DNA from: a virus
Strand: one strand, 5' to 3'
Length of the DNA stretch: 31,515 nt
IMG/VR virus record: IMGVR_UViG_3300006753_000035
Span: 1 to 31,515 of that record
Below the pieces are notes generated by a model. It made no database searches and was not told the origin of the DNA. It was given only the letters and a program-made list of their open reading frames with translations. Below, in pieces: positions 8,398 through 28,680 of the stretch. A program made the position numbers and the translations under genes. The stretch's first letter is position 1. Every line of letters starts with the position of its first letter.

Positions 8398-8403
8398 TAA
8401 CAA

Positions 8404-9135: not shown

Positions 9136-9446
9136 TGAAAAAGATACTACTTATCGTTGGTGTAGCGTTGTTCGCAACGACTGCAAGAGCGGAGACCTTT
9201 GGAGCAAGCCTCAAGCCTGTCCCAAATGTCACCTTGTTTGGCCAGACCATCAAGTGGGGCATCCCCTCCTTATGTGTGGGCAAAGCAGCGGGGGTTCTCC
9301 CCGATGCACGAGTGTCTGCCGAAGGGATAAGCCTCAAGCTTCCTTGGCTGGCTGTAGACATCCCCCTCCCCTCCCTCATTCTTGGCTTCAAAACCAACAA
9401 GGTGGAGCTAAAGTTGGGAGAGGTTAACAGAAGTACCCAAGAATAA
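9135..9446 (+). CDS. Secreted small protein of unknown function
   Basis: The 103-residue product starts with a clear Sec-type signal peptide: MKK, a hydrophobic core (ILLIVGVALFA) and a cleavage-like TARA-ETF near residue 19. The mature 84 residues are beta-rich with alternating hydrophobics (VTLFGQTIKWGIPSLCVG, LKLPWLAVDIPLPSLILG) and one Cys. No catalytic motif of muramidases, amidases or peptidases is visible. It begins the group of envelope-directed genes inserted between scaffold and capsid. An envelope role such as lysis timing, superinfection exclusion or receptor masking is plausible but unproven. The start overlaps the scaffold stop (TAATG). I do not recognise the family. Confidence 0.75.
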   Translation: MKKILLIVGVALFATTARAETFGASLKPVPNVTLFGQTIKWGIPSLCVGKAAGVLPDARVSAEGISLKLPWLAVDIPLPSLILGFKTNKVELKLGEVNRSTQE

Positions 9447-9447
9447 T

Positions 9448-9720
9448 ATGCCTGATACACAACTTACTGTGCCGGTGGTAAACGAAGCGGTTAAGAAACC
9501 GGGATATAAATCCACCGAGTTTTATATGAGTATGCTGGCTGTGATCGTTGGGGCCGTTGCTTCCTCTGGAATACTGGAGGGAAGTGACGGTTTGACCAAG
9601 GTTGTTGGCCTTGTTATGGCCGCTTTGGTAGCCCTCGGCTACACAGGCTCTCGTTTGACCCTCAAGAAACTGGACACAGCTAATGGCAACGGCACTACTG
9701 GCAATACTGGCAATTCTTAA
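9448..9720 (+). CDS. Holin-like two-helix membrane protein
   Basis: This 90-residue protein has two predicted membrane segments, at about 26-46 (FYMSMLAVIVGAVASSGIL) and 50-68 (LTKVVGLVMAALVALGYTG), joined by a short EGSDG loop. A Lys-containing cytoplasmic-type stretch precedes the first helix and a hydrophilic Gly/Asn/Thr tail closes the protein. This layout, including the KSTEFYMS entry and the ALGYTGSR exit, fits small holins of marine and other phages that form the lysis hole. The two spanin-like frames immediately following strengthen the lysis reading. The last codons, which encode GNGTTGNTGNS, overlap the next gene. Confidence 0.8.
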   Translation: MPDTQLTVPVVNEAVKKPGYKSTEFYMSMLAVIVGAVASSGILEGSDGLTKVVGLVMAALVALGYTGSRLTLKKLDTANGNGTTGNTGNS

Positions 9721-9865
9721 AGAAATACTTAGTTTACTATGGAATGAGGCTGCTAAACCTGTTAAAGCAACGGTTGCTCCTGCTGTCCCTGCTAGTCTTA
9801 GGGCTGCTTGGAACAAACGGATGCTTGACAAATGGAAAAAGAGTAGTCTTCATTCCGACGAGTGA
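9683..9865 (+). CDS. Putative small inner-membrane spanin-like protein (overlaps both neighbours)
   Basis: A 60-residue frame starts inside the holin gene and overlaps the lipoprotein gene that follows. It has one N-terminal hydrophobic helix (ATALLAILAILKEILSLLW), a Pro/Ala/Val linker, and a basic amphipathic end (AAWNKRMLDKWKKSS). One membrane helix plus a short periplasmic part, nested against a lipoprotein frame, is the layout of Rz/Rz1-type spanin pairs. It is shorter than classical i-spanins and lacks a long coiled coil, and no clear ribosome site is seen, so the function is an inference. Confidence 0.5.
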   Translation: MATALLAILAILKEILSLLWNEAAKPVKATVAPAVPASLRAAWNKRMLDKWKKSSLHSDE

Positions 9866-10010
9866 CGCCTTGGTTCGTTTAGGGCCAGACGTTACAGGCC
9901 GAGTCTATTACTGGGACGGCAAAGAGTGGGAACTCTCTAGAAACAGAGTCACTCTGCCTGAAGGGTGGTTGGCTGGGCCATTAGATTTGCCCGAAGGGGA
10001 CGCTGAATAG
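9744..10010 (+). CDS. Putative outer-membrane lipoprotein, o-spanin-like
   Basis: The 88-residue product has a basic start (MRLLNLLKQR), a long leucine-rich hydrophobic core and a lipobox-like LLGTNGC with the lipidated Cys at position 27. The predicted mature part of 62 residues is globular rather than proline-rich: RVVFIPTSDALVRLGPDVTG, VYYWDGKEWELSRN, VTLPEGWLAG. It lies in a +1-type overlap with the putative inner-membrane partner and follows a holin, which suggests the outer-membrane half of a spanin. The mature sequence is unlike the classical Rz1, so a different surface role is possible. Start choice rests on the signal sequence, since no strong ribosome site is visible. Confidence 0.68.
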   Translation: MRLLNLLKQRLLLLSLLVLGLLGTNGCLTNGKRVVFIPTSDALVRLGPDVTGRVYYWDGKEWELSRNRVTLPEGWLAGPLDLPEGDAE

Positions 10011-11371: not shown

Positions 11372-12223
11372 ATGGCTTACGGGGTGCTTACATCGAAGCT
11401 GGAGGCAGTAAATCAAATGCTGTCTACTATAGGGCAGGCACGGGTTGCCTCTCTCCAAACTTCAGGCGAAGCTTACGAGGCACAGAAGGTTTTAGAGGAA
11501 GTTGATAAGGCAGTCCAAACGGAGGGGTGGCACTTCAACCGATTCTTTGACGAACCCCTCTCTCTAGGTACAGCTACGATTGGCTGCATCATTTCAGAGC
11601 AACCCTCAACTGCGGTCAACACGGTGACGCTTGGCGGCAGCACCGCCGCTCAACATTTTTTAGAAAAGGGAGAAGCAATCGCAATCGACAGCATTGCTAA
11701 TACAGTAGAGACCGTTAACAGCGATGGTATTTCCTTTGTGGCAGGGACGGCTGCAAGCGGTCAAGTTCTTAGGTATAGCCAACGTATAGCTGCGCCTACC
11801 AATGCGCTACAGCTTGACACTAGCCTGAGCAGCTACTCAAGTCTTGATCCTATTGTTCGTGGAAGATTTCTTTATGATAAATATGATGGGACATACCAAT
11901 TTACTACTGACCTTAAGGTTAACATTGTTTACCAAGTAGCCTTTGAACAGGGTGATGAGGGTGAGCCAGCGTTGCCAGAACATGCTCGTCGATTCATTAC
12001 GATGCGAGCCTCAAGGATTTTTGCACAGAGATATGTTGGTGATCCTCAGTTGTTACAGTTTGTAATCCAAGAAGAGAGAGATGCGTGGACATCGTTTGTG
12101 CAGATCGAAGGCGAAACTGCCGACCACAGCATATTCGGTTCGGCTCTAGCCTACTATACGGTGGAGCGTAACACGACATCGAACGTCAATCCAGTAGGGT
12201 CTCTTTATAGGGTTGTAAAATAA
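11372..12223 (+). CDS. Tail tubular protein A (adaptor), T7 gp11-like
   Basis: The start ATG at 11372 gives MAYGVLTSKLEAVNQMLSTI, which aligns with the T7 gp11 beginning (AVNDILASIG). Frame extension upstream into the terminator is not supported. The T7-like core continues with LEEVDKAVQTEGWHFN, then FTTDLKVNIVYQVAFEQGDE, LPEHARRFITMRASRIFAQR and FVIQEERDAW. At 283 residues it is longer than T7 gp11 (196), with about 70 extra residues between GWHFN and IAAPTNALQLDTS. The protein forms the ring joining portal to nozzle. No normal ribosome site is seen near the ATG, since the U-tract of the terminator lies directly upstream, so expression may be low by design. Confidence 0.9.
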   Translation: MAYGVLTSKLEAVNQMLSTIGQARVASLQTSGEAYEAQKVLEEVDKAVQTEGWHFNRFFDEPLSLGTATIGCIISEQPSTAVNTVTLGGSTAAQHFLEKGEAIAIDSIANTVETVNSDGISFVAGTAASGQVLRYSQRIAAPTNALQLDTSLSSYSSLDPIVRGRFLYDKYDGTYQFTTDLKVNIVYQVAFEQGDEGEPALPEHARRFITMRASRIFAQRYVGDPQLLQFVIQEERDAWTSFVQIEGETADHSIFGSALAYYTVERNTTSNVNPVGSLYRVVK

Positions 12224-15200
12224 TGCCTGTCACCAAGTATGCAGTTACTAATTTGTCACAGGGAGCCAGCCAGCAGGCAGAGTCCCAGCGATTTCCTTCT
12301 CAGGCTACGGAACAAATCAATGGTTACTCGTCCCACATCAAGGGACTAACCAAGCGTCCTCCCATAGAACATCTAGGGGCAATCGACAAGATTACCACCT
12401 CGACTCTCTCTCCCGCTCAGGACTCCTTCTTCCACCTAACGAGCAGAGACAGGCAAGAGCAGTATGCCGTAGTGATAAACAAGGGTGGGCTAAGTATTAC
12501 CACCACGAGCATTGATACCACCACATCATTACCTTTTGGGGAAACCGGTATCATAGGGAGTGCCATTGTATATCAAAACTCTGACACAGAGGATAACACT
12601 CCCTTCTTTACTGCAGGTCAAGTAGTTCAACTGTATGCAACGGAAGGTAGAAGCTCGCTCGTCAAGGGGATTACACTAGGTAAGACTTATTATGTTCATA
12701 GTGAAGGACAGCAGGGCCAAGTTGGAGACAACTACTGGAGATACATCCGCTTAAAGGAGACCAAGGATGCCTCTGTCGCTACAGCCCACCCTGATGTTGG
12801 TGGTTACATAACATTTGGACAGATAGAACTCACCACCCCCGCAATGGGTACGTCTACTGTTAGTGGTGATGAATATAAGGCTGGCTTGTTGGTGGAGTCG
12901 GTGCGAAGAGCCAACGGGTCTTGGATTGACGGTGTGATAACTGTGCGGTTTGGGAGCACCACCAGCGCACAGGGTAACGATTATACAGTCGGCGATCAGA
13001 TTAGGTTCAGGGACTTAAACACAGAGACCTACATAGGAAGCCAGCAAATTCCAGTATTTGCTAAGTATGTCCTGACTAGACCTTGGGAAGACTACCTTCT
13101 CACGCAGCCTGCAAAGACAATGGGCAACACAGCCCTGCGTACCGCTGAGAAAGAGAATAAGTTTTGGCTGATGCAGGGGGGACAGTTCAGGTCATCCGAT
13201 TTCGACGGCTATCGAATAGATGGGGATCAACTAAGGCACATTGATTCTTATAAGGAGAAGTATGCGAAGGGCCATACGCAACATGATTTCATTGGGTGGT
13301 CTGGTGCAGTTGACTCTGCCGATGCTACCGCACAGGTGACGCTTGATGGGGATGAGATTGAGTGGGTTACCGTAGGTTCTAATACTCTGGACTTTCGTAC
13401 TCTGTTCTCTGAGGGCCAGCTTATCAAACTGGGTAGTCATGTTAACGCACCCCGTAGTATTGTAACAAAGGTGGAAGAGCATAAGCTCACCCTTGCAGAA
13501 GCCCCTTATACTGCTGGCGGCGATTACACAGACAGCGATGGTACTAACTTCAACCTGTACTACTGGTCTACCCTATCCACCAAAAAGGTGCGCCTGTTCC
13601 ATGTGTCGGACTACCGACCTACTACAGTTGGAACAGCAACAACCACTTCGACAGCCCATGTAGGGAACGCTCCAGAAAGTTCAATCTTTTATGTGGTGAA
13701 AGAAGGGATTGGCCCTTATGTATTTGATTTGAAAACCGGGGATGAGTACCCCATCGAAGTAGATAATTCGCGGGGAAATCCTTATGATTATTTATCTCAC
13801 ACTACAAACCCAAAGAAAGATTTTGAAGCGGTAACCATAGGGGACACTACCTTCATCGCAAACAAGACTGTCTCTGTGAAACCGGGAGGGTTCGCTCCAA
13901 ACCGAGAGAGGTACGAGGCGTTCATTACTGTTCGACAGGCTGACTATGGTAAATACTACAGGATAAATGTTGGAGACGAGGCTGTTAACCACTCGTTGAA
14001 TCCCGGCGTTACTTTTGAAGAGGAAACAGATGAGACACCTGCCTCAAAAACTAAAGGATTTCTCTATGGAGCAGACGGGGCAAACGCAAACTCTACGTCT
14101 CGGAAAGTTATATGTATTCGGCGAAGGACAGCGGGAGACTTTAACAACTGGTCACTACGGTTTACTCAAAACTGGCACTTCTTTTGGGATCCTGCTGGCG
14201 GCTGGGGTACGACAGAAAATGTTCCTCAAGGTGTAACGGCTGGTAGGTCTACTCCACCACAGGGGGAGGGGCGCACCTTTGCTACCACCTCCATGAGTAT
14301 TGAGAGAGGCGCAGCGATGTACACCACCACTACCGAGTGGGGCCATGTCGTTGCAGATTGGACTCCAGAAGATCAGGACACGGAAACTGTTGCGGTTGCA
14401 TACGACAATGTGCGGCAGGAGATAACTATTTGGGCTAACTTTTATTGGGCCTATGAATACAGGTATGGTAGCCAGACTACCACAACGGTTAAACAGGTTC
14501 TTAATGCCCTTAACAACTCTGGGTTTAACGATCAATGGGAAGCACTACTCTGTGATGACCAAGGTCGAGTAGGCCCAACGACAGACTTAGATGGTAACAC
14601 GGTCGAGGCAGACACAGGTTTTCAAAGCAGTACATTGTCAGAAGAAGATTGGACGTTTACCGATTGTATCTTAGGGAATGACTTTCAGGATAAGGACAAG
14701 GACAACGTTGATGATACCTATAAGGTAGCCGGTAACAGATATACAATAGGGCGCGACTCTGAGACCCGTCAACTCAGGGACATGACGTTCTGGATAAATA
14801 CAGGTGGTAGCTGGTATGACAATTATGATCCTGAAGACTTTGAGGGGGATGTCTTTGAGGGGGGTGGTTTAGAACTCAGCGAGGTTCAGACCGTTAAAGA
14901 CCCCGGTCTTCTGATGCCAAAGACCCCTCCCGGTCGCTTATTCAGAACTGCTGCCTACCATAAGTTTGGTGGGGGCGCAGGAACAGTACCAAAGTTTGAT
15001 CTCACCGATACGGTTGGAACGGGCCAAGGCAGTAATAAGATTGTGGTTTATAATGGTCAGTATTTCTACAAGACTCCTAAGTGGACAGGAGCGACAGGTC
15101 AAGAAGCAATAGGTACACACCGAGTTGCAGAGATGTTGGCCAGCAATGGTCTCATTACCACAGGGAAGTGGTGGGTCACCCCCGCTAAAAAACTGCAGGG

Positions 15201-17190
15201 AGCAGGAGGAAAGTCGGTCAGTCACTATGCTGAGTCAACTATTCGCACGGCATCCAAGGAGGAACTGATTGGGTTAACTCATACTCGTTCTGACATGGAC
15301 GATCAGGCTGACATGGATGGCCCCGGTACTTCAGGTCATTACTATGATGCTACTAAAACTAAACACTTAGCTGAGTGGCAGGGAGATGTCTTAGGAGGAG
15401 GAGACCGCGAGTGGAGCGTTGAACAGTTTGGTTCAACCATTTCCATTAGTAATCCAGAAGGCACATTTTTTAAGATTGGTGTTGAGGATGATTTAGGAGG
15501 GGACGGGTTAAATCTTACCTACTATGAAGTTGAGGAGAGTGCCAAGCTCCCTGAGATATGTCGGCACGGTCATGTGGTTAAGGTAGTGGGAGACGCTAGG
15601 GAGCAGGCTGACGATTACTACCTGAAGTTTGAGGGAGATGAGGCTGACCCCCATCGCTTACAACATGGACGTTGGGTAGAAACCTCTGGGTTCGGTGTGG
15701 TATCTGACATCAGGCATTCAAGCATGCCTGTGATGTTGCAGCGATTTTTCAGAGCCAACAAACCAGTTTTCCGTCTCTCTCATGGGTTATGGAAAGATCG
15801 AAAGGCTGGGGATGACTTCTCGAATCCCATGCCGTCGATTGTTGGCCAAACACTCAACCAGATTTTTCTCTATAAAAATCGCTTGGGTTTCTTGGCGGGA
15901 CAAAATGTAGTCTTAAGTGAATCAGGAGAATACTTTAATCTCTTCAGAACAACGGCTGCTTCGTTCCTTGATACGTCTCCCATTGATGTACGCACCTCAT
16001 CAGAGAATGTTTCCAAGCTGCACTATGCTGTGCCTTATGCAGACCGCCTTGTTTTGTTTGCTGATCAGGGTCAGTATTCTCTGCAGGGTGATCAATTCCT
16101 GTCTCCTAAGACAGTCAGCATTACCCCTACCACCAGCTTTTCTAACTTTTCATTAGAGGCTCCTCCCATTCTAACTGGCAACTCGGTGTTCTATCCGTTT
16201 GAGCGGACAGGGTTTTCAGGTGTAGGAGAATACTTTCTGTCTAAAGATCAGTTAGATAGCCTAGACGCCAAGGACTTGACCGCACACATCCCGAAGTATA
16301 TCGAAGGCAACGTCACCAAGCTGGCCTCGTGTTCTTCGGAGGATGTGCTTGCGGTTTTAACAGATGCTACAGGTAAGGCTAACCTGTACATCTACAAATA
16401 TTACATTGCTGAGAACAGGCAGAAGGTTCAGTCTGCATGGTTCACATATCAAACAGGGGATGCGAACTCACAGATTCTCAACATGGAGTTTATAAGCAAC
16501 AAACTCTACCTCATCGTTAAGAGAGGTGACTTTACTTTCTTAGAGTCACTAACCTTTGAGGATTCCCAGCTAGATGGAAGCAGAGGCTTTCAGGTTCTCT
16601 TGGATCGCCGCCTCACAATGGCTTCAGGGGATTCACGGGTTGTCTATGCTGTAGGGAACACAACGATTACTCTCCCTTATTCTCCTACTACTAACTTCAC
16701 GGTGATGCCTCCTAGCAATGTCCCGGTGAAACCTACAACTGTTACTACAAGCACAGCGGTTTTCAATGGGATCGACCTCACAGGAAAGGAGTTAATCATG
16801 GGCGAACCTTATACGTTTGAGTACACCCTGTCTAAACCGTACCTCCGTAAGGCGGGGACTGACAGCAAGGGGCCACTCTACGGGGGCCGTCACCAGTTGT
16901 TCCGAGGGGAACTAGAGTTTACAAACGCTCGTACCTTCACGGTGGATGTCACGCACCTACCACAGGATGTAACGCAGAGTAGTACACACTCCTTTGGTGG
17001 GGTGGAGTTGGGATACGCCACGGCAATTGAAGGAGTATCCACGCTGTCGCAGGGTTCATATAGATTTGGGATCATGGGGAAGAGTGACCGCGTTAACATT
17101 AAAATTACTAATGACACACCCTATCCGTCAGACTTTTTAAGTATAGACTATGAAGGAAGAGCATATTCTAGGGCTACAAGGTGGGGCTAG
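12223..17190 (+). CDS. Tail tubular protein B (nozzle), T7 gp12-like, greatly enlarged
   Basis: The ends and core are clearly T7 gp12: residues 1-57 include GASQQAESQRFP, INGYSS and GLTKRPP. Residues 521-550 hold YLSHTTNPKKDFEAVTIGDT. From 1117 onward come HVVKVVGDAREQADDYYLKF, MPSIVGQTLNQIFLYKNRLG, FLAGQNVVLSESGEYFN, PIDVRTSSENVSKLHYAVP and a C-terminal SYRFGIMG close. T7 gp12 is 794 residues; this one is 1655. The excess sits in two insertions, about residues 90-490 and 560-1110. The insertions are beta-rich, and the second contains DKDKDNVDD near 823, resembling a calcium-binding loop. The protein forms the hexameric tail nozzle that gates DNA. The start overlaps the gp11 stop (TAATG). Confidence 0.93.
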   Translation: MPVTKYAVTNLSQGASQQAESQRFPSQATEQINGYSSHIKGLTKRPPIEHLGAIDKITTSTLSPAQDSFFHLTSRDRQEQYAVVINKGGLSITTTSIDTTTSLPFGETGIIGSAIVYQNSDTEDNTPFFTAGQVVQLYATEGRSSLVKGITLGKTYYVHSEGQQGQVGDNYWRYIRLKETKDASVATAHPDVGGYITFGQIELTTPAMGTSTVSGDEYKAGLLVESVRRANGSWIDGVITVRFGSTTSAQGNDYTVGDQIRFRDLNTETYIGSQQIPVFAKYVLTRPWEDYLLTQPAKTMGNTALRTAEKENKFWLMQGGQFRSSDFDGYRIDGDQLRHIDSYKEKYAKGHTQHDFIGWSGAVDSADATAQVTLDGDEIEWVTVGSNTLDFRTLFSEGQLIKLGSHVNAPRSIVTKVEEHKLTLAEAPYTAGGDYTDSDGTNFNLYYWSTLSTKKVRLFHVSDYRPTTVGTATTTSTAHVGNAPESSIFYVVKEGIGPYVFDLKTGDEYPIEVDNSRGNPYDYLSHTTNPKKDFEAVTIGDTTFIANKTVSVKPGGFAPNRERYEAFITVRQADYGKYYRINVGDEAVNHSLNPGVTFEEETDETPASKTKGFLYGADGANANSTSRKVICIRRRTAGDFNNWSLRFTQNWHFFWDPAGGWGTTENVPQGVTAGRSTPPQGEGRTFATTSMSIERGAAMYTTTTEWGHVVADWTPEDQDTETVAVAYDNVRQEITIWANFYWAYEYRYGSQTTTTVKQVLNALNNSGFNDQWEALLCDDQGRVGPTTDLDGNTVEADTGFQSSTLSEEDWTFTDCILGNDFQDKDKDNVDDTYKVAGNRYTIGRDSETRQLRDMTFWINTGGSWYDNYDPEDFEGDVFEGGGLELSEVQTVKDPGLLMPKTPPGRLFRTAAYHKFGGGAGTVPKFDLTDTVGTGQGSNKIVVYNGQYFYKTPKWTGATGQEAIGTHRVAEMLASNGLITTGKWWVTPAKKLQGAGGKSVSHYAESTIRTASKEELIGLTHTRSDMDDQADMDGPGTSGHYYDATKTKHLAEWQGDVLGGGDREWSVEQFGSTISISNPEGTFFKIGVEDDLGGDGLNLTYYEVEESAKLPEICRHGHVVKVVGDAREQADDYYLKFEGDEADPHRLQHGRWVETSGFGVVSDIRHSSMPVMLQRFFRANKPVFRLSHGLWKDRKAGDDFSNPMPSIVGQTLNQIFLYKNRLGFLAGQNVVLSESGEYFNLFRTTAASFLDTSPIDVRTSSENVSKLHYAVPYADRLVLFADQGQYSLQGDQFLSPKTVSITPTTSFSNFSLEAPPILTGNSVFYPFERTGFSGVGEYFLSKDQLDSLDAKDLTAHIPKYIEGNVTKLASCSSEDVLAVLTDATGKANLYIYKYYIAENRQKVQSAWFTYQTGDANSQILNMEFISNKLYLIVKRGDFTFLESLTFEDSQLDGSRGFQVLLDRRLTMASGDSRVVYAVGNTTITLPYSPTTNFTVMPPSNVPVKPTTVTTSTAVFNGIDLTGKELIMGEPYTFEYTLSKPYLRKAGTDSKGPLYGGRHQLFRGELEFTNARTFTVDVTHLPQDVTQSSTHSFGGVELGYATAIEGVSTLSQGSYRFGIMGKSDRVNIKITNDTPYPSDFLSIDYEGRAYSRATRWG

Positions 17191-17668
17191 ATGGGACTAC
17201 GGAGCAGCTTATGTTAGGCGAAGTACCATATCGGATGCCAGATCAATCGGGGAGAACCTACGGGCTGCTGACAGGGAAGAACTCTCTGCGCTCACCCTCA
17301 AGCCTCCTGTATCAATCATTGCAGATGGAATCAACTCCGCAGTCGCCTGCTACACCCTCTGCCTCAGAGACGGTGACCGTCCCTGTGCAATTTTTGGTGT
17401 CAACAACTCTGGAAATCCCGAAAGCGGCATTGTCTGGTGCTTGGGAACTGATGATCTATTCGGAATTGCTGTCAAATTTCTGCGTAACTCCAAAGAATGG
17501 TTGAATGAATTACACTCAAAACACAGACTTTTGTTTAATGTCGTTGACGAAAGACAGACAGTCTATATTAAATGGCTCAAGTGGCTTGGCTTTGAGTTTA
17601 TCGAAGAGTTCGATAAATATGGCATAGAAGGCAGACGGTTTAGATTATTCACAAGGTATCATGTTTGA
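17150..17668 (+). CDS. Internal virion protein, T7 gp13-like (GNAT-like fold)
   Basis: This 172-residue product overlaps the nozzle gene by 41 nt. Its C-terminal two-thirds align with T7 gp13 (138 residues): PCAIFGVNNSGNPESGIVWC, LGTDDLFGIAVKFLRN, YIKWLKWLGFEFIEEFDKYG and a final RRFRLFTRYH. The YVRRSTISDARSIGENLRAA start is acetyltransferase-like, consistent with the fold of this family. In T7 gp13 is needed for assembly of functional virions but is not part of the final particle. The first 20 residues (MKEEHILGLQGGARWDYGAA) may not be translated, because AAGGAAG at 17153-17159 looks like a ribosome site for a later start, though no standard codon fits it. Confidence 0.82.
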   Translation: MKEEHILGLQGGARWDYGAAYVRRSTISDARSIGENLRAADREELSALTLKPPVSIIADGINSAVACYTLCLRDGDRPCAIFGVNNSGNPESGIVWCLGTDDLFGIAVKFLRNSKEWLNELHSKHRLLFNVVDERQTVYIKWLKWLGFEFIEEFDKYGIEGRRFRLFTRYHV

Positions 17669-18272
17669 AATTATCCCCATCTTAGCCTGCGAACCCACTA
17701 CGATTGCCATGATGGTGATCGCTGCGGCGTCTTCAGCAGTCCAATACATGGGTGCAAAGCAGCAGGCTGAAGCTACCTTGGAACATCAGAAAGCTGTGGG
17801 GGCTGACATGCAGAGGCAGGAGGGGCTGCAACAAACCATGCTGGCTTCTAATGTGAGAGACAAGCTCGATGCCTCGGCCAGACAGAGGGAAGCATTTCAG
17901 ATCAAAGCTACCACAGTAGCTTCTAAACGGGCTGCTTCTGCTAATGAATCAGGAGCTACGGGAGCCAGCCTAGAGATGGCAGCACAGGAATTTGATGCGT
18001 ATGACGCTAGGTGGATGGAGGCTCAGTATCTCAGGGAAGACACAGCGTTAGCCAAGTGGGATCGAGACAAAGCCTTACTGGCTTCTCAGGTACGGGGTCG
18101 TTTGATTTCCAACTACTCTCCCATAGCCCAGCCATCTGAGTTGGCCTACGGGCTGGAAGCGGCTGGTGGAATGTTGTCTGCTTATGACAGCTACAAGACT
18201 AGGCAAGGCTTTAAGCCCAAGGATAAAGTCTTTGAGGCGAGTCCAGATATTAGCGGAGAGATGGACATCTAA
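17661..18272 (+). CDS. Internal virion (ejection) protein, T7 gp14-like
   Basis: At 203 residues it matches T7 gp14 in size (196) and position. After a short hydrophobic start (AMMVIAAASSAVQYMGA) it is a long Ala/Gln-rich helical protein: KQQAEATLEHQKAVGADMQR, DKLDASARQREAFQIKATTV and a Ser/Gly hinge NESGATGASLEM. T7 gp14 leaves the capsid first and forms the outer-membrane part of the DNA channel. The hydrophobic N-terminus here would suit membrane insertion. AAGG lies six bases before the ATG. The gene overlaps gp13 by eight bases and the following gene by one (TAATG). Confidence 0.82.
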   Translation: MFEIIPILACEPTTIAMMVIAAASSAVQYMGAKQQAEATLEHQKAVGADMQRQEGLQQTMLASNVRDKLDASARQREAFQIKATTVASKRAASANESGATGASLEMAAQEFDAYDARWMEAQYLREDTALAKWDRDKALLASQVRGRLISNYSPIAQPSELAYGLEAAGGMLSAYDSYKTRQGFKPKDKVFEASPDISGEMDI

Positions 18273-21200
18273 TGGCAGCTAAAGCAAAACGGTGGAACCC
18301 CACGCCTTCGGAAGTCCTAGGGGCTATCCCCACGGTTGACCCCGGCAACGCTGGGCCAGCTTCCATTACGGGACGCGCCTACAAACCCTCTGGTGGGACA
18401 GGTCTCCAACAACTGGGGACAGCCCTAAAGAGATTCAACCCCATCCTTGAGAAGTACATGGTAGGCCGGGAGAACCGGGGGATGGCTGAGTCTTCACAGT
18501 ACCTACGCGAGATGGAACAGATGGTTTCTGATAATGCGTATGGGTTTAAGACAGGCTTAAAAGCAGCAGGGTATTCTCAATGGAGGAACCCTCATGTCTA
18601 TCGGAATCAGATCATGAACGTAGCCGGGATCACGGCTTACAAGGATGCTGATTTTCTCCGCACAGATGCAGAGTTTCTAGCTGCAATCGAAGCAGCGAAG
18701 AAGGGTGATGATTTTGCTGGGCAGGCTGAACTCATAGCTGAAGAACACCTAGCTAAGAACCGTCAGCGTCAACCTACGAACCCTAAAGAAGGAGGCTACT
18801 GGGATGCAGGGTATGCTCCCAAGTGGATGGAAGCTAGGCAACGCTTACTCCAACCTTTCCTGAACGAGAAAGTCAAAGCGGATCGCACGGAAGTCCTAGA
18901 GAATTTCTATGAGAATGGTCGCAACCATTTGTTGGATGTCATTAAGATTAACCAACCGAATTACAAAGACCCAGTAACCGGCAAGACCAGACAGCCGGGA
19001 GACGAGATCAACATTAAGCCCTTGCGAGAGTACATCAGCAAACAATGGGCAAGCTATCCAGATGGTGATCACTCTTTCAATCAGGCGGTATTTGAAAAGA
19101 TCATCCAACCCGTCTTCTTAGACTTAGTTGAAGACCCGGACAACGAGTTGTTGATTGAGTCACTCTATGAGCGAGTCATGAAGATGACCCGTGAAACCAC
19201 TAACCCAGACGGCACGAAGAGTCGCCACAGTATGTTCAAGCGGTGGAAGGATGGGGTGTCTGGCGGTAGTTCCGGTTCATTTAATCTTGATGAAGATTCA
19301 TTCTGGGAAAAGGTCATGGATGTTGAGGCCGAGGCTCACAACAAACAATTCCTGCGCGAACAAAAGGAAGTCAATAGATTAGCTACAGGAGTTAACCTTG
19401 TTCTCAAGGACAGGGCCAACCCTGATTGGGGTATACATGACGTTCCTTTCCCATATGACAGCAAGGGAATATCAACGGTTGCCAACACTCTTGCTGCGAA
19501 TGAAGACTTTTTAACCAAGTATATTAGAAAAGGAGGAGACCTCCACACGCAATTAGTCTTTAGGGAAATCGTGCAAGACTTAACCCGTGCTATTCGTAAG
19601 GCTGATCTAACGGCCTTAGTGACTGAGCGAGAGTATGGAAAAGAAATTGACGCAAAAATTCAAACGTCATTAAACGCATACATAAAGAATACTGATCTGT
19701 TCCCCCAAATCCAGAAGATGTTCAGGAAGGCAATCGGCGGCAGCACAACTTTAGAAGATGCCAAGAAGAGAGCCACCGCTCTGCTCAACCCTGAATCTTT
19801 GGTCGCTGGTTTTATCGCGGAGAACCCCACCTTCAAACCCGAAGCGGCTGGCCTCATGATGGCCCTGTCTCGTAGTGTTGATTCTCTCGGAGACAACTCA
19901 GCCCTTAGCAAAAGTAATGATCTTATCCAAATAGCCTCCAATGTAGCACGAGGAAAAGACACAGGATCAGACCCCTATGAGCTTATAGCAGAGCTTACGG
20001 ATGCTCAGAACGAAACCTTCACAGATGAGGATGATGAGGCATTAGGCCGTGCCATTAAGATGGTGGAGAAGCATACCCAAATTATTGGGCAATGGGAATC
20101 CTTGAACAGGGACGAGTCTTCCATCTTATCTTCAGTAATTGACGGAGGAGCCAACGATGTTCTTAGGTCTGTTATCTCTCCTCATTTCTATTTCAAACTC
20201 AAGTCACCTGATGAGCTTGGGGAGCAATCGGGGGTTGATCTAGGTAAACCATCCAACTTGGAGAAGGAGGCAGCGCACTCGGCTTTCGAGGAGATGCAGG
20301 ATGACATGAAAGCAATCTCACGCAAGCTCCTGCATAGATATCATGCGGCTCATCCAGACCCCACAGAGCGGGACAACCATTGGAGGGACTCAGGACAGAA
20401 AGAGGTAACAGATGAAATCGTTAGGCAGATGCGTGAGCGGGTTAATTTCTATGCGAGGACATACACAGACCACTTAAGGAGAAGCCAACAAGGGCGAGCG
20501 CAGACTGAGACAAAGCAGATGAAGACCCTGCTTGAGGCAAGTGCGGCTGAAGCAAAGCAAGTTGATGACATAGCAGTACAGATGGAGGAGTCGCTGCAGA
20601 CGTTAGGCAATATTGATAACAAGCAGCTTTTTGAAGATAACCAAACTGCCACAGGTGCGGCGTCTGCGGCTCATTTTTGGACAGGCCCATCTGGGAACAA
20701 GATAGCTGAAGCCCTGAGACAGCGGCAGAAGCAGCGTAAGATTCAGTATGACCTAGGTGTTACGGAACTCGCAAGGGATTTGCAGAACTTGAAGAAGGCA
20801 CGAGAGGCGGGTGCAACCGATCAGATAGATATAGAACTAGAAAGGGTTAGGCAGAAGCAGAATTACATCAAGAACATGAGGCTTCAAGGGGGTAACCTTG
20901 ATTGGCAGGATTGGATTGATGATAAGGGTGCGCTTAAACAGGGTTCAGACTTAAACTTTAATGTCATGAACGAGGACGGTGAAGAGATGTCCGTTCCCTT
21001 TAACATTGTTGGAGACAACCTCAACCCCCAATACCACCTCCTCTTTAACAAGTGGGATGAGTTTGATGACATCACCGTTGAGATCAACGCTGCTGAGAAA
21101 GACCCAGAGTATGAGTTCTCGACCAAGGCAAAGGGATTTTTCAAGTTGTGGGGAGTGATGACGGGTGATGATATCAATCCCCACGGGAAAGACCTTAGTG

Positions 21201-22738
21201 ATCCCGAAGTCGCTCGTAAGCTTAAGAAGGCCCACGGCAATTATGACCGAAAAATGCGAGGCCAGATGGTCATGTTCATGTCTCGCAAGAGGGGTGACCT
21301 CCCCCAAGCTGCTGTCGAGCATATCCAAAACAATATCGTAGCAGATTTTTTGGGTGGGGACAGTAACATGTTCCAAGATGTTCACTACACAGACCGGGAG
21401 AAAGTCCACCATGAGAGGTTTCTCGTCCACAACCAGAAAGTTCTAAATGGTGAGGTTAACATCGAGGATGGGTTAGATTGGGATGGGTATTTAGAAAAGT
21501 ATGCGGTGGTCACGAACGGGATGATTCCGACCGGCCCTTACACAACTCGTCCCAACCCTGAGACAGGGTTTGCTTCCGATCATATAATTCAGAGTGGCAG
21601 AGAGAGGGATGGGAGTCCTATTATTGGTTACGGGAGGGCGTTCATAGACCCAGAGATGCAAGACCAAGTAGCGTCACCCCTCTGGACTTTGCAGGGCTTT
21701 GAAGAAATGGGTGATGTCGAGAGGACTCAAGAGGCTATTGACATGCATGGTCTGGATGATTGGGCTATACCTCGCAAGGACAAGATAGGCAGGCAGTATT
21801 TCTTAGCACAAGAGCTTGCGCTCGCTGACATGGGGTATAAGGAGACCACTAACCTCCCTGACTCTGGATGGACTTGGCCGCGCCTCGCAGGCCATGCGTT
21901 TGGAGGCTCAGGAATATCTCTCAATGTTAAAGAGTTCAAGCAGAAGACTGAACACTACAGGCAAGTCCTTAGTGGTGGCCCAGAGCAAAACTCAGCGAGG
22001 GCTAGAGCGTTCAACCTCCTCCTTGCCCACTCAAACTTAACCAAAGACAAGTATCTTAGTAAGACGAATATGATGGGTCTTTCGCCTCTTTCTATTCCAC
22101 ACAAGCCAGAAGAGTCTGAGTTTCCTCCGATGATGCCTGAGTCGATTGATCATAGTGCAGAGCGTAGTGAGCGTGAGCAGCGGAAGGCAGGAAGCTTCGG
22201 AGCAACGACGAAGGAGGAGCAAGAGAAGAAGGATAAGGAGAAGATGGTCTCGGACATAGTAAAACGTAACGCCTTCGATCTGAGGGATGACCCCAATCCG
22301 CGAAAAGATAATAGAGAAACGCCCAAGCCGGTCATACCTAAGACCCCGCCGCTACCTCCCGGCATGTCAAAGCTCCAAGCGGAACATGGGCCTCAAGTTA
22401 AGCCTGTCCCCAAGAGGAAGCCTAAACCTAAACCAAAGCCAACTAAGGAACCAATGGAGGAGGCGGCGGTGAAAATGATTCAAGACATACGGAGCAGAAA
22501 TGCGTTTGATCTTAAAGAACCTAAGAAGGTTCCGGGTCAAGATGATCCAAATCCGAAGAAAAGCGTTCTAAGTAAATCAGGGAAAGCGGCTTTGCTGCGG
22601 AAGCTAAAAGACCCGAAGAGAAAAACAGCAGCCGAGCGTATCCTAGAGACGCTTAAGCCAACTCCCCCAGAAGCCGCAAGGATTATCGAGGAGATGACAA
22701 AAAGGAATCCCTTTAACCTGAAGAAACCTAAGAAATAA
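18272..22738 (+). CDS. Internal virion (ejection) protein at the gp15 position, enlarged
   Basis: The 1488-residue protein occupies the gp15 slot between the gp14-like and gp16-like genes; T7 gp15 is 747 residues. The N-terminus (LQQLGTALKRFNPILEKYMV, then helical segments rich in charged residues) fits a gp15-type core-stack protein that forms a periplasmic tube during ejection. No enzymatic motif is visible. The middle, about 700-890, is Gln/Glu-rich and coiled-coil-like (LRQRQKQRKIQYDLGVTELA). The last 170 residues are disordered, Lys/Pro-rich (KRKPKPKPKPTKEP), and carry three copies of a 13-residue motif. The assignment rests on order, size class and helical character more than on residue identity. 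The ribosome site GGAGAG lies in the preceding gene. Confidence 0.8.
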   Translation: MAAKAKRWNPTPSEVLGAIPTVDPGNAGPASITGRAYKPSGGTGLQQLGTALKRFNPILEKYMVGRENRGMAESSQYLREMEQMVSDNAYGFKTGLKAAGYSQWRNPHVYRNQIMNVAGITAYKDADFLRTDAEFLAAIEAAKKGDDFAGQAELIAEEHLAKNRQRQPTNPKEGGYWDAGYAPKWMEARQRLLQPFLNEKVKADRTEVLENFYENGRNHLLDVIKINQPNYKDPVTGKTRQPGDEINIKPLREYISKQWASYPDGDHSFNQAVFEKIIQPVFLDLVEDPDNELLIESLYERVMKMTRETTNPDGTKSRHSMFKRWKDGVSGGSSGSFNLDEDSFWEKVMDVEAEAHNKQFLREQKEVNRLATGVNLVLKDRANPDWGIHDVPFPYDSKGISTVANTLAANEDFLTKYIRKGGDLHTQLVFREIVQDLTRAIRKADLTALVTEREYGKEIDAKIQTSLNAYIKNTDLFPQIQKMFRKAIGGSTTLEDAKKRATALLNPESLVAGFIAENPTFKPEAAGLMMALSRSVDSLGDNSALSKSNDLIQIASNVARGKDTGSDPYELIAELTDAQNETFTDEDDEALGRAIKMVEKHTQIIGQWESLNRDESSILSSVIDGGANDVLRSVISPHFYFKLKSPDELGEQSGVDLGKPSNLEKEAAHSAFEEMQDDMKAISRKLLHRYHAAHPDPTERDNHWRDSGQKEVTDEIVRQMRERVNFYARTYTDHLRRSQQGRAQTETKQMKTLLEASAAEAKQVDDIAVQMEESLQTLGNIDNKQLFEDNQTATGAASAAHFWTGPSGNKIAEALRQRQKQRKIQYDLGVTELARDLQNLKKAREAGATDQIDIELERVRQKQNYIKNMRLQGGNLDWQDWIDDKGALKQGSDLNFNVMNEDGEEMSVPFNIVGDNLNPQYHLLFNKWDEFDDITVEINAAEKDPEYEFSTKAKGFFKLWGVMTGDDINPHGKDLSDPEVARKLKKAHGNYDRKMRGQMVMFMSRKRGDLPQAAVEHIQNNIVADFLGGDSNMFQDVHYTDREKVHHERFLVHNQKVLNGEVNIEDGLDWDGYLEKYAVVTNGMIPTGPYTTRPNPETGFASDHIIQSGRERDGSPIIGYGRAFIDPEMQDQVASPLWTLQGFEEMGDVERTQEAIDMHGLDDWAIPRKDKIGRQYFLAQELALADMGYKETTNLPDSGWTWPRLAGHAFGGSGISLNVKEFKQKTEHYRQVLSGGPEQNSARARAFNLLLAHSNLTKDKYLSKTNMMGLSPLSIPHKPEESEFPPMMPESIDHSAERSEREQRKAGSFGATTKEEQEKKDKEKMVSDIVKRNAFDLRDDPNPRKDNRETPKPVIPKTPPLPPGMSKLQAEHGPQVKPVPKRKPKPKPKPTKEPMEEAAVKMIQDIRSRNAFDLKEPKKVPGQDDPNPKKSVLSKSGKAALLRKLKDPKRKTAAERILETLKPTPPEAARIIEEMTKRNPFNLKKPKK
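22244..22720 (+). repeat. Three dispersed copies of a 13-residue motif in the gp15-like tail
   Basis: The copies are MVSDIVKRNAFDL (residues 1325-1337), MIQDIRSRNAFDL (1402-1414) and IIEEMTKRNPFNL (1471-1483), spaced by 77 and 69 residues in a Pro/Lys-rich disordered tail. The consensus is an amphipathic turn followed by RN[AP]F[DN]L. The first two copies are also followed by DDPNP and basic residues. The DNA of the copies has diverged (GTAACGCCTTCGATCTG against GAAATGCGTTTGATCTT), so the amino acids are what is conserved. Confidence 0.85.
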
Positions 22739-22740
22739 AG

Positions 22741-25700
22741 ATGCCTGTAGGAGAAACTAAAATAGGTGGTGCTACCAAAAGCGAACTGGATCAATACCAA
22801 GGTCAGATGGACAGTTGGTATACTCGGTCAGATGGGCAGGCTAACTATAAGTCGAGGCAGATGGCAGAACGTCCTTGGTATATAAACACATTCCAAGGAG
22901 GCACTAAGGGTTTGGCCAAAACAGTTGAAGCTGGGGCCAACCTTATCCCCGACTTGATGGGTGCAGATCAGCGGTTCTTTACCTTTTCTGATTACATCCC
23001 AGACAATCCCGAAAGCACTAACTACCAACTGTCAAACATAGGAGTGCATTTGGTTAGCTCCTATCTATTGAGTCATAGGGCTATAAAAGCGTCTGGCTTT
23101 GGCGCAGAGAAACTCAGCAAAAACATTGATTGGAGCCCGTCCTTAAAAAAGAGATGGGGTAAGAAGCCCAAGTCAGACAAGGAAATCTCTGCGATGGACG
23201 ATAAGACTCGTTCTGTTTATATCGGTGATTTGGCTAAAAATCTTCGTGAGCAAGACAGGATGAAGCGGTCTAGAGGTTTAACTCCTAGGAAGCTTTACGA
23301 GATAGGCAAGCAGGGAATCGGTACAGGTGTTGTTGCGGAGGGAGTGCTTTGGAGAGGACAGGATGAGGAGTTAATCATCGACAGTCTTCGTAGTTTTTTT
23401 GATGAGTATAGCGAATTAGAGGGCATCGTTGAGGAGGCTATTGAAGACAACCCCAACTGGATGAATGAGCCTGCCAACAAGCTGGGAGAGAAGATCACCT
23501 TCAGTTGGAACGCATTTCATGGGAACGCACTTGGCAGGCTGAAGTTTGCAGGAGAGGGTGCTGTCTTTGGACTCTTCTTTAACTACTTTGCAGCCCTGTT
23601 AAAGGTTGGTGCTGTCGCAGCAGGACGCACAGGGTCACGAGGACTCAGCAGGATTCTACATGGTGGAGATCAGGCAGCTAAAAAAGGAGCAGACGCAACT
23701 GAAGCAGCGGCAAAGGGTGGGGATGGGCCTCTCTCAGCGAAAGAACGGAAGAAGCTAGAGTCTGAGGACTTAGCTTTTGGCGGTGACCAAGATACTGTTA
23801 CTCCTATTAACGAAGCTGAAGCTGCCGATGAGTTAGCAGAAGCCCACTCGAAAGCCTTAGACGGCTCTGAAGCTGAAGAGGCAGCCAAGCCTAAAGAGCT
23901 AAAAGATATAGATGATGAGTCCTTAGCTCCCAGAGAGTGGGACGAAGACCTACACGGTGAGGTTGAGAGTGAATTAGTAGGTGTAAAGGAAGACCTTTAT
24001 AAGAGAACGCCTGTCGGACAGAACGAGGAAATCCCCGTTGACATGCTGGATGGCCCTCCTCCTGATGGTTCTATTGTTGTTAATTTTGAAGCAGCCCTGT
24101 CTGCCGCTGCAAGGCTTCAGGATAAACTCCTGACTCTGGACGGTATCAAGGCTCAAGCAATGTTAAGGAACCTTGGGAGGAAGTCACCAAAGATTGGAGA
24201 CAACCTAACAGCTAGAGACCTTCTGGGGTCAGGGCCGTTAGATGATATGACGGTCAAGCAGGCCGAAGATTTTCTAGGGCAACTCGATCTTGAGAAGGAG
24301 CAGATAGCTGCGCTGCTTCATCTACGGAAACTCATCAATGTATTTGAGTTTACAGATGAGGAACTAACCCTTCTTGCGAGACGGGCAGAAGGTTCTAGCG
24401 CTGGCTGGCCGGAAGTTGCACGGGATGTTGACGTTACTGGCCCAGAGTTTAAGGAGCTTGCTCCAGACTTAGTGGACAAGGAGGTGGGTGAGGGGGCTTT
24501 GGAAGGTGGTCTCATGGAGACCATTCATCTCAATTCTCCCCTGACTCGCTTCCTAGATCAGGTTCAATGGTTGGTTCAAGGTGGGAGGAAAAACCCTGAA
24601 GGGATGAAGAAAGCCATAGTGGATGAACTATGGAGAATGTTTGATGATGCACTTGGGGATGTCCCTGATGGGAAGGCGGTAGATAGACTTACTCAGAAAG
24701 CCAGAATCCAAGAAATCGCAGACAACATAACTAAGAAGGGGAGCAAGCTCCGAGACATGGAGCAACTGAGCGGGACAACTGATGTTGGTCTGATGAGACA
24801 CGCCTCCGACATGGGCTTGTCCGAAGAAGAAGCCACAAGGTTTATCGAGTCAACGCGCACCACCTCGTTCGACGAGCTTCCTAATGAAACTGTTAGGAAA
24901 GACCCTGTGTCAGGCGAAGAGCTAGACGCTTGGGAACTGATGGAAAAGATGGATGCTGAACGCATCGCTGAGGGCATACCACCTTGGTCTAAAAATGATC
25001 CAGAATGGTCAGCCGAGTTTTCAAAGAGGAGGGGGTATTCTCCTGAACAAATAAAAGCTACTGCAGATCATATCTCACAGATTGGGGAACTTCTTCAGAA
25101 GGGGCATAGGATAGCAGACCTTCAATACTTTGAGGGAAACATTACGGGTCAGTTAGATAACTTACAGACGCTGGCAACTACCTATGACGGTAAGGTAGTT
25201 CTTAGGCGAAGTTTAGCCCAAGATAATTGGAATCGCTGGCAACCCGATGGCTCAAATCCCATACTTCAGGAACACATCCCCAAAGATGTCTTCTCTGACT
25301 ACCAAGATTTTGAACGTTTTATTATAGAGCGAGAGAAAGCTTACTTAAGGAACCCTATGATGCGTGGTGAGGATATTGTCAACTACCACCGCAGGGTTCA
25401 GCGACACGCCATCAACGCTTCTAAGCGTAAGGGTATTGGAGATTTCTATAAGTATGAGTTTGATCCCAAAGGCCCAGCGGGTTTAAGGCTAACAGAGAGC
25501 GAGCAGCTTCGGATTCTATTTGGAGAGGGGAATGATGTAGCTGGTAAAAAGGTTATTGAGATACTGAAGAACGCCGGGAAAGCCCGTGGACGTAGCGTGA
25601 CTGACGCCATGAACGAGGCGGCGAAGATCATTAACATTGATAACACAATGACTGACATTGGTTCCAAGTACCTTACGGGGAGGATCATGTCGTTCTTCAT

Positions 25701-28680
25701 ACACAGCCTCCGTCAGGGGTTCTCCCACCTTCCTGATGATGCTCGTGCCTTTAAGAAAGCTGATATTGATACTCTCGCTGATGCCCTTGGCTTTGTTAGA
25801 GACCCTCATCGAAGAGGGCCAGCCGCCATACTGGAAGAAGATGTCCTGAACGGTATAGATGATATCGCAGATGCCAATGCTATCGGCAGGGATGCAATGG
25901 CTGAACGTATCCGTAGTGGTCGCGGTGATTTCAGAAAGCTTTATGGAGAGTTAGCTCCCTCCACCAGCCTTGACAAATCCCTTTCACAGGACGTTAAGGT
26001 TCTCAAAGAAGCGTACATTCGGACTGTCGCTTATAAGATGGATGCCGTCATGCAAGTGAAGCGTCTTGAGCAGCTAGCAGACGATATTGTCAAGCTGTCT
26101 GACGATCAATGGGCGGCTAATAAAGGTATGCAGAAGGCATACCACGACGAAATGCAGCGGATCGCCCACAAGGTATCTAACCTTCAGAAACTAGGGACTG
26201 CAGGCGGTAGGCTGCTCCGCGCTCAGAATGATATGCACAAGGCTGTCTTCTCAGACATGGAGAAGCACCTTGATCAGGTTAAGTTTGGTAACCCCGCAAC
26301 TGTTAAGAAACACGCTCATAGGCTTCATGCTATTATGCAGGCCAATAAGCATAGCGCAGTTGATTCTGCTATTGCCTCGAAGGAGTTCTTATCGAACAGC
26401 ATTAGTGGTATAGACATTCATAATGAGTATTGGCTTAACTCCATCCTTAGCGGAACCAAGACTCAAATGGTTAACTTCATCTCCACAGGTATCCACCTCT
26501 ACTACAAACCTGTAGAAGGTATGGTTGGAGCCTTGATGCGGAGAGACCCCAAGCAAGCCAAGGTTATGGTAGATAGCCTTGTTCAAACAGCCATGATCAA
26601 CGCTTCCGTAATGAAAGTGCCGGGGTCATTAGGTTGGAACTGGGCGAAACGAGCGGGAGGATTGATTGACAACGCAGGCTACCACGCTGGCCGATCAAAG
26701 ATTTTTAAGAGAGGGCAGGAAGGAACAGGCCCGATGGCTCAAGCCACAGGTGCGGTAGCTGGAGCGAGGAAATCCTTCCGTGCAGGCGAAGGAACCCTAA
26801 GCCAACACTCTGACCTGTTTGATGTAAAACCACCTAACGCCATCTCAGGTCGGTTGCTGGGTGAGCAGGCAGATGAGTCCTTCTTTGGGGCTAGTATGGG
26901 AGCCAAGAAGACGTTGGATTATGTAGGAAACCTCATTCGTATGCCCATGCGGTTGATGATTACGAGTGATGAACTGTTCAAGCAGATTGCCTTTCGCTCT
27001 ACTGCCATGTCGAAACTAGCGCAAGACGCTTTGGAGCATGGCCTGACAAGTTCAGATGATGTCGCAAAGTATATCGCTGATAATTTCAAAGGATTGATAC
27101 GCAAAAATGGCAAAAGGCACACAGGCAAGGCCATTCAAGATGAAGCTTACCGTGAGCATGGTAAGATTATGAGTCGTTTCAATGACAAGGCTACTGATGA
27201 GTTCCCTGAGCAATACCGTAACAGGAATGACTTTGTTGAAGATTATGTGGCTCACCATTATGATCCCAATAAGGGCGTCTTATCAGAACGAGCAATGGAT
27301 TGGGCTGAAGACGTTACCTACACCAGACGGCTGGATAAAGACGCTGTATTCCTCAAGAGTCTAGGTAAGGGAGGGAAGGGACACTCAATGCTGCAGGATG
27401 TACAGGACATGGTACACCGCCATCCCTACCTACGCCTTGTGATGCCCTTCATCAAGACACCTGTGAATATCCTGAAGTTCCCTCTTCAGCGTATGAACAT
27501 TCCCTTTATCACCAACCAGAAGGGGCAACTACTGGGTAAGGAAGTACAATGGCTGAAGAACATGCACACAAGGTATGCCGCCGATATGGCCAGCGGTGAC
27601 CCCCAGAGAATGGCCGAAGCGGCAGGCCGCGTCTGGGCTGGGAGGTTTTATTGGGTGAGTAGTATTTCGTTGGCAAGCTCAGGAGTCATCACAGGTGGTG
27701 GCCCCTCTAATCCAAGGGAGCGAAACAATCTGATCGCCACAGGATGGAGACCCTACTCTGTTCGCATGGGGGATAAGTATATCTCCTATAGCAGGCTCGA
27801 TCCCTTCTCGACAGTCTTGGGGTTAGCCGCCGATGTCTATGAAAAGTTCGCTGAACAGGGACAGAATGGTGATTTAGAGGAGGATGGGTTCCAAGCGGTC
27901 ATGCTCGCTGGGGCTTTCTCCCTCTCCAACAACATAGCCGACAAGAGTTATCTGGCAGGCATCAACAACGTTCTGCAGGCTTTCCTAGAACCTGAGACTA
28001 AGTTGAAGACTCTCCTTAAGAAACAAACTGGGGCTTACATCCCTAAGATTGTCTCACAATGGACGCCACTCACAGATGATCATTACATGAAGAAGACCTA
28101 CAGCCTGCTTGAAGGCTTAATGGTCAGAACCCCCGGTGCTGCTCGACACATTGAGCCTATGAGGAACTACCTCGGTGACCCCGTAGAAGCCATGTATCAG
28201 CCTACGGTGTGGGCCGCTGGATTGAACCCCTTCCTGATTAGTAAGGCTAAGAAAGACCCAATCTTGGATGAAATTGGCCATCTGGATTACGGTTTCGGTG
28301 CGCCTACCGCCAGAATCAAAGGGTCTCGTCACCTTGACATGAGGAAATTCTTTGATGAAAACGGCAGGACAGCCTTTGATCGTTTCCAAGAAGCCATTGG
28401 TCAGGAAAAAATAAATGGACGCACACTCAGAAGTTCGTTAGAACGGTTGTTTAACAGTCCCGGGTATGAACGGGCTGGCACAATGGCTGAGAGCAATGAG
28501 CTTTTTCATCAAGGAACATTTCGTGACCCTCGCATTAAAGCGGTGAAATCTATTATGGCAAAGTACCGTAACAGAGCTAAAAACCGTGTGCTGAAGGAAT
28601 ATCCAAACCTAAAGAGTGCCGTCAGGACTTTCAACTGGCAGACTGATACTCAAATGGAAAAACTATTAGGAGAGTTTTAA
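22741..28680 (+). CDS. Giant internal virion protein at the gp16 position
   Basis: At 1979 residues this is the largest gene in the window (T7 gp16 is 1318). Its place after gp15 and before the fibre, and its size, make it the gp16 equivalent that forms the inner-membrane end of the ejection channel. T7 gp16 begins with a lytic transglycosylase domain. Here residues 1-120 show no such Glu-Ser or GLMQ-type motif. Visible parts are a hydrophobic stretch at about 268-296 (FGLFFNYFAALLKVGAVAAG), an acidic region at about 340-420, and a C-terminal block NSILSGTKTQMVNF (about 1232), RMPMRLMITSDELFKQIAFR (about 1400) and LRLVMPFIKTPVNILKFP (about 1564). This block recalls large polyvalent and virion proteins of other phages. 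A second hydrophobic stretch is near 1636-1655. Confidence 0.82.
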   Translation: MPVGETKIGGATKSELDQYQGQMDSWYTRSDGQANYKSRQMAERPWYINTFQGGTKGLAKTVEAGANLIPDLMGADQRFFTFSDYIPDNPESTNYQLSNIGVHLVSSYLLSHRAIKASGFGAEKLSKNIDWSPSLKKRWGKKPKSDKEISAMDDKTRSVYIGDLAKNLREQDRMKRSRGLTPRKLYEIGKQGIGTGVVAEGVLWRGQDEELIIDSLRSFFDEYSELEGIVEEAIEDNPNWMNEPANKLGEKITFSWNAFHGNALGRLKFAGEGAVFGLFFNYFAALLKVGAVAAGRTGSRGLSRILHGGDQAAKKGADATEAAAKGGDGPLSAKERKKLESEDLAFGGDQDTVTPINEAEAADELAEAHSKALDGSEAEEAAKPKELKDIDDESLAPREWDEDLHGEVESELVGVKEDLYKRTPVGQNEEIPVDMLDGPPPDGSIVVNFEAALSAAARLQDKLLTLDGIKAQAMLRNLGRKSPKIGDNLTARDLLGSGPLDDMTVKQAEDFLGQLDLEKEQIAALLHLRKLINVFEFTDEELTLLARRAEGSSAGWPEVARDVDVTGPEFKELAPDLVDKEVGEGALEGGLMETIHLNSPLTRFLDQVQWLVQGGRKNPEGMKKAIVDELWRMFDDALGDVPDGKAVDRLTQKARIQEIADNITKKGSKLRDMEQLSGTTDVGLMRHASDMGLSEEEATRFIESTRTTSFDELPNETVRKDPVSGEELDAWELMEKMDAERIAEGIPPWSKNDPEWSAEFSKRRGYSPEQIKATADHISQIGELLQKGHRIADLQYFEGNITGQLDNLQTLATTYDGKVVLRRSLAQDNWNRWQPDGSNPILQEHIPKDVFSDYQDFERFIIEREKAYLRNPMMRGEDIVNYHRRVQRHAINASKRKGIGDFYKYEFDPKGPAGLRLTESEQLRILFGEGNDVAGKKVIEILKNAGKARGRSVTDAMNEAAKIINIDNTMTDIGSKYLTGRIMSFFIHSLRQGFSHLPDDARAFKKADIDTLADALGFVRDPHRRGPAAILEEDVLNGIDDIADANAIGRDAMAERIRSGRGDFRKLYGELAPSTSLDKSLSQDVKVLKEAYIRTVAYKMDAVMQVKRLEQLADDIVKLSDDQWAANKGMQKAYHDEMQRIAHKVSNLQKLGTAGGRLLRAQNDMHKAVFSDMEKHLDQVKFGNPATVKKHAHRLHAIMQANKHSAVDSAIASKEFLSNSISGIDIHNEYWLNSILSGTKTQMVNFISTGIHLYYKPVEGMVGALMRRDPKQAKVMVDSLVQTAMINASVMKVPGSLGWNWAKRAGGLIDNAGYHAGRSKIFKRGQEGTGPMAQATGAVAGARKSFRAGEGTLSQHSDLFDVKPPNAISGRLLGEQADESFFGASMGAKKTLDYVGNLIRMPMRLMITSDELFKQIAFRSTAMSKLAQDALEHGLTSSDDVAKYIADNFKGLIRKNGKRHTGKAIQDEAYREHGKIMSRFNDKATDEFPEQYRNRNDFVEDYVAHHYDPNKGVLSERAMDWAEDVTYTRRLDKDAVFLKSLGKGGKGHSMLQDVQDMVHRHPYLRLVMPFIKTPVNILKFPLQRMNIPFITNQKGQLLGKEVQWLKNMHTRYAADMASGDPQRMAEAAGRVWAGRFYWVSSISLASSGVITGGGPSNPRERNNLIATGWRPYSVRMGDKYISYSRLDPFSTVLGLAADVYEKFAEQGQNGDLEEDGFQAVMLAGAFSLSNNIADKSYLAGINNVLQAFLEPETKLKTLLKKQTGAYIPKIVSQWTPLTDDHYMKKTYSLLEGLMVRTPGAARHIEPMRNYLGDPVEAMYQPTVWAAGLNPFLISKAKKDPILDEIGHLDYGFGAPTARIKGSRHLDMRKFFDENGRTAFDRFQEAIGQEKINGRTLRSSLERLFNSPGYERAGTMAESNELFHQGTFRDPRIKAVKSIMAKYRNRAKNRVLKEYPNLKSAVRTFNWQTDTQMEKLLGEF

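Follow-up and report, generated by a model that had tools for sequence, protein, structure and literature searches.

The gp15-like ejection protein of a partial T7-like podovirus genome (IMGVR_UViG_3300006753_000035, a virus record whose 31,515 bases form the window analysed here) ends in a basic, Pro- and Lys-rich tail that carries three spaced copies of one sequence unit, and the similarity of these copies at the peptide level is real and not a product of chance. We infer, with a probability of roughly 0.4, that the tail comprises three spaced anchor units that would dock multivalently on the internal core ring and thereby tether the core stack before ejection; binding, partner and timing all belong to the inferred side of this reading. 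Judged by its alignment with related proteins, the tail that follows the conserved core end is a module specific to this lineage, attached to a protein of a known kind. Three genes define its setting in the window:

17661 to 18272, plus strand: gp14-like internal virion protein gene, 203 amino acids (Pfam T7_gp14, E 1.3e-14; PHROG 805, internal virion protein, E 2.7e-9).
18272 to 22738, plus strand: gp15-like ejection protein gene, 1488 amino acids (assigned by position, a core homologous to 16 IMG/VR proteins and weak fold-level matches to T7-type core proteins).
22741 to 28680, plus strand: gp16-like internal virion protein gene, 1979 amino acids (hits PHROG 6651, internal virion protein, at E 2.3e-38 and is matched in 66 phage records).

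Because its gene sits directly between the gp14-like and the gp16-like genes, the 1488-residue protein holds the position of T7 gp15, the internal virion protein C that builds the core ring and the periplasmic tunnel. Pfam and PHROG searches with this protein gave no match, sequence similarity to T7 gp15 was not detectable (hhalign E 0.22 over 84 columns), hhalign against the protein at the gp15 position of KT997847 returned nothing, and tblastn of the whole protein against phage records found no match; since distant gp15 proteins diverge beyond the reach of Pfam, PHROG and hhalign, a null result at the sequence level does not exclude membership in this family. A model of L021, a relative with almost no tail (mean pLDDT 74.5), gave a weak, colinear match to the mature T7 core chain 9jyy_G (Z 6.4, 269 residues aligned, rmsd 11.9), and several of its matches in BFVD were internal virion proteins of T7-like phages, the named ones with E values of 0.04–0.65. 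Foldseek searches against the PDB yielded no significant match, and sequence profiles run against the PDB yielded nothing relevant. In these models the fold-level support for a gp15 identity is weak but points towards gp15, and together with the flanking genes it agrees with an earlier note on this DNA, which had called the protein a gp15-like ejection protein. The present protein further resembles T7 gp15 in being mostly helical and in having a basic C-terminal end, but it is about twice as long, and the T7 protein lacks a triple helix-NxFxL tail.

The 3′ part of the gp15-like gene contains the following features:

22061 to 22105, plus strand: end of the conserved gp15 core, KTNMMGLSPLSIPHK, aa 1264–1278 (family consensus NxFG[IV]xPLPIPxK from alignments, its Phe lost here).
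22115 to 22735, plus strand: lineage-specific basic Pro/Lys-rich tail, aa 1282–1488 (51 K/R, 32 D/E, 30 Pro; pLDDT mostly below 50; unlike the tails of relatives).
22241 to 22285, plus strand: repeat unit 1, KMVSDIVKRNAFDLR, aa 1324–1338 (predicted helix aa 1314–1332, ending at RN).
22472 to 22516, plus strand: repeat unit 2, KMIQDIRSRNAFDLK, aa 1401–1415 (predicted helix aa 1395–1409).
22679 to 22723, plus strand: repeat unit 3, RIIEEMTKRNPFNLK, aa 1470–1484, then KPKK (predicted helix aa 1467–1478).

The hexamers at the heart of these units are RNAFDL at aa 1332 (nt 22265–22282), RNAFDL at aa 1409 (nt 22496–22513) and RNPFNL at aa 1478 (nt 22703–22720). Their starts are spaced by 77 and 69 residues, all three lie within the last 165 residues of the protein, and the third is followed by five residues, KKPKK, and then by the C-terminus. 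The earlier note had described three spaced copies in the C-terminal tail, the last ending five residues before the C-terminus, and was accurate on both points. It had also given the motif a length of 13 residues; the repeat itself stands, but the similarity extends upstream of the hexamer, and the full unit is longer, comprising about 14–18 residues including the predicted helix, with the pattern [KR][MI][VI]x[DE][IM]x[KS]RN[AP]F[DN]L[KR]. No other R?NxFxL-like match in any reading frame forms a group with these three copies.

A plain identity count on the hexamer only is modestly significant, with the observed value reached in 3 of 300 shuffles. When BLOSUM scoring was used, the best gapless triple in the 207-residue tail consisted of exactly these copies, whether taken at 8, 14 or 18 columns, with scores that no shuffle out of 1000 attained (z 4.1, 6.7 and 8.4, respectively). 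A position-specific scoring matrix (PSSM) of the unit gave the three copies scores of 38–42, while the next match among the proteins of the window reached 13.8. This next match, at aa 79–93 of the gp15-like protein (REMEQMVSDNAYGFK), was dropped as a candidate further unit, its score falling within the range of maxima obtained on 20 shuffled proteomes (6.4–18.3). Among 47 gp15-like or position-matched proteins encoded upstream of gp16 genes, a set of ORFs picked by position that are not all homologous gp15 proteins, the present protein has the strongest triple repeat (z 8.2; the next 3.9).

Copies 1 and 2 have ten identical residues, and six of these ten are specified by different codons. The synonymous differences to which the earlier note had drawn attention are hence real, and the copies are not the product of a recent DNA duplication. 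Several copies kept at the peptide level while their codons diverge are a mark of short linear docking motifs in disordered tails, and the present tail shows it.

In an AlphaFold2 prediction of the monomer (aa 289–1488, 17 aligned sequences), the helical core mostly has pLDDT values of 70–90, while the tail mostly lies below 50; with this and its 30 Pro and 51 Lys or Arg residues, it fits its earlier description as a disordered Pro/Lys-rich tail. Within it, the Arg of each RN (aa 1332, 1409 and 1478) is precisely the last residue of a predicted helix, and the three helices stand out as local peaks of confidence, at about 64, 58 and 50, values that are low in absolute terms. Unit 3 has a high amphipathic moment (99th percentile within the protein), units 1 and 2 a moderate one (87th and 88th). 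Since a predicted helix precedes each motif and ends precisely at RN, the unit looks, in this model, more like an amphipathic helix with an N-x-F-x-L cap or hydrophobic plug than like a bare peptide. The tail contains five aromatic residues: two Phe near its start, at aa 1284 and aa 1309, and the three of the motif copies, which are the sole aromatics of the last 179 residues. A foreign-DNA origin of the tail was considered and found unsupported; its GC and GC3 values match those of the core.

Relatives of the gp15-like protein were found in IMG/VR by way of gp16. The gp15-like proteins of L001, L003, L013, L021, L022 and others share with it a homologous core ending in NxFG[IV]xPLPIPxK; they differ from it in having no RNxF repeat, their tails being absent, short or unrelated. 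The core-end stretch was seen at the gp15 C-termini of L001, L002, L003, L013, L021, L022, L024 and L026, and its Pro belongs to the handful of positions that do not vary across the 17 aligned proteins. Because this end is predicted with pLDDT 86–89 in L021, it appears to pack on the core in that model. The core end of the present protein lacks the consensus Phe (TNMMGLSPLSIPHK) and reads TNMMGLS. In several relatives the protein stops at most a few residues past the core end, and others have short, different extensions. In L014, the gp15 tail (5997–9998, last 88 residues) is short and Lys/Pro-rich, with two PPLP-type copies, DLPPLPPNMPK and VLPPLPEGLGK; as this tail is its own, tails seem to have been gained repeatedly in the gp15 family. 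At the extreme C-terminus of the L026 protein, the core end recurs as a second, shorter copy (RPDPFGINIPEGN).

The earlier note made conservation in homologues a touchstone of the motif, and on this point its proposal was not supported: the nearest tail-bearing relatives, L001 and L003, which are about 48–51% identical to the present protein over the core and have tails of about 180 residues, contain no RNxF in these tails. The two tails are homologous to each other (Smith-Waterman score 476), and their similarity to the present tail is marginal or nil (82, p ~0.007; 44, p ~0.43). Their tail being a different sequence altogether, the missing RNxF speaks for lineage specificity of the motif rather than for a lack of function. 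IMG/VR scans with gp15, tail, gp16 and alignment queries recovered as near kin only L001, L003 and fragments, with the motif in none of their gp15 tails that were read; in L012 and L004 the record lacks this part of the gene. Neither tblastn of the tail against phage records nor a search of genome contigs gave a further example of motif or tail, and a literature search found no described motif of such a kind. Conservation across homologues, another mark of docking motifs, was thus not found; within the collections searched the tail motif occurs in a single genome, too few to judge its conservation between phages.

How could such a tail act? In each unit, a short amphipathic helix would lead into N-x-F-x-L, whose Phe and Leu would serve as a hydrophobic plug, and the three units would bind with avidity to one kind of site that is repeated on the internal core ring. 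Such sites could lie on neighbouring gp15 subunits, on the tetramer of gp16 or on the collar formed by gp14 and portal; the earlier note had thought of the portal, the gp14/gp16 rings, a scaffold contact or a partner in the host periplasm. Linkers rich in Lys and Pro would bridge the distance from one site to the next and touch packaged DNA, and the tail would hold the core stack together before ejection and then be drawn out with gp15. What speaks for three docking anchors is a triple repeat of 14–18 residues far beyond that seen in shuffled sequences, predicted helices that end at RN in all three units and are each a local confidence peak, motif Phe residues that are the sole aromatics of the terminal 179 residues, and codons of identical residues that have diverged while the peptide has not. 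Repeated sites close to gp15 are known from T7, where gp15 forms an octamer on gp14 and the 12-fold portal, with gp6.7 peptides bridging the symmetry mismatch (PMC11784390), and where gp16 stabilises the C-terminal region of gp15 after ejection (PMC8954989). The T7 gp6.7 adapter peptide is comparable by function only: in the head interior, short segments of this peptide connect portal, gp14 and gp15 and accommodate the symmetry mismatch (PMC11784390), but it is a separate protein of 88 residues and not a gp15 tail. Against docking by three anchors stand the motif-free tails of L001 and L003, the restriction to a single genome and the low confidence of the helices (about 50–64).

Among the alternatives, a plain DNA-contact tail fares best and is a serious contender, although we consider it unlikely. 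In that case charge would hold the linkers to packaged DNA, and each unit would be just a short helix with an ordinary N-x-F cap that aids packing and has no protein partner. The tail is indeed strongly basic (net +19, with a KRKPKPKPKPTK run), T7 gp15 too has a basic C-terminal stretch, and the C-terminal domain of T7 gp14, which is unresolved, is thought to touch DNA (PMC11784390); charge, however, needs no 18-residue sequence kept at the peptide level in three places. Self-association strikes us as improbable. Here, the helices of neighbouring gp15 tails would bundle into a sleeve on the core or the periplasmic tunnel, as the helix predicted at each unit, its hydrophobic positions and the clear amphipathic moment of unit 3 would allow, but the helices come from a monomer model and are of low confidence.

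A more improbable alternative still holds that the units mimic the NxFG[IV] core end and dock in its pocket, compensating for the Phe that the present core end has lost. NxFG[IV] is conserved and, in L021, confidently placed, and the present core end reads TNMMGLS. When the relatives are scanned with a PSSM of the tail-motif 6-mer, the core-end site has a median rank of about 10 out of some 1300 positions; conversely, a PSSM built from the core ends of the relatives places KRNPFNL first in the whole present gp15-like protein. The match nevertheless covers only about five residues, its tail-shuffle p value of ~0.02 comes from a comparison made after the resemblance had been noticed and with relatives that are not independent, and the 14-residue unit is not enriched. 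The notion that the whole 14-residue unit is a copy of the core-end motif was rejected on this last ground; a resemblance over 5–6 residues is what is left of it. Least probable of all is a tail with no function, a fast-evolving low-complexity sequence that lengthened through old internal duplication and in which the likeness of the copies is a mere remnant; this would suit the instability of tails across the gp15 family but not the divergence of codons at identical residues whose peptide was kept, nor linkers that lie outside the best-scoring repeat.

Docking by three anchors can be extended to a broader proposal that we regard as doubtful: the disordered tail would be a modular core-stack tether that is swapped between lineages, and the anchor unit might stem from a copy of the core-end strap, a conserved element whose docking role would have passed to the tail. 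How the symmetry-mismatched gp14/gp15/gp16 stack of T7-like phages is held and then released is still an open question, and a tail with three repeated anchors, if that is what it is, would offer an easily cut handle for testing peptide tethers in the core stack. The comparison also exposes the conserved core end NxFG[IV]xPLPIPxK, beyond which the sequence may be a swappable module.

Some further features of this genome and of T7 emerged. The best PHROG match of the gp12-like tail nozzle protein (12223–17190, 1655 amino acids) covers only residues 996–1653; compared with the PHROG profile of about 790 residues, the protein thus carries a large additional portion, either N-terminal or inserted. 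A very basic ORF of 77 amino acids (6563–6796; MCMSSPRVAKP...KKRRRGTSARSLTIARPQG) with no PHROG match immediately precedes the portal gene, at the position where T7 has the small virion proteins gp6.7 and gp7.3; its product may likewise be a small protein of the core or tail. In T7 itself, the C-terminal tails of gp14 (L098) and gp15 (L097, 326–2566) have in common the exact string APIVAA, which possibly marks a shared contact.
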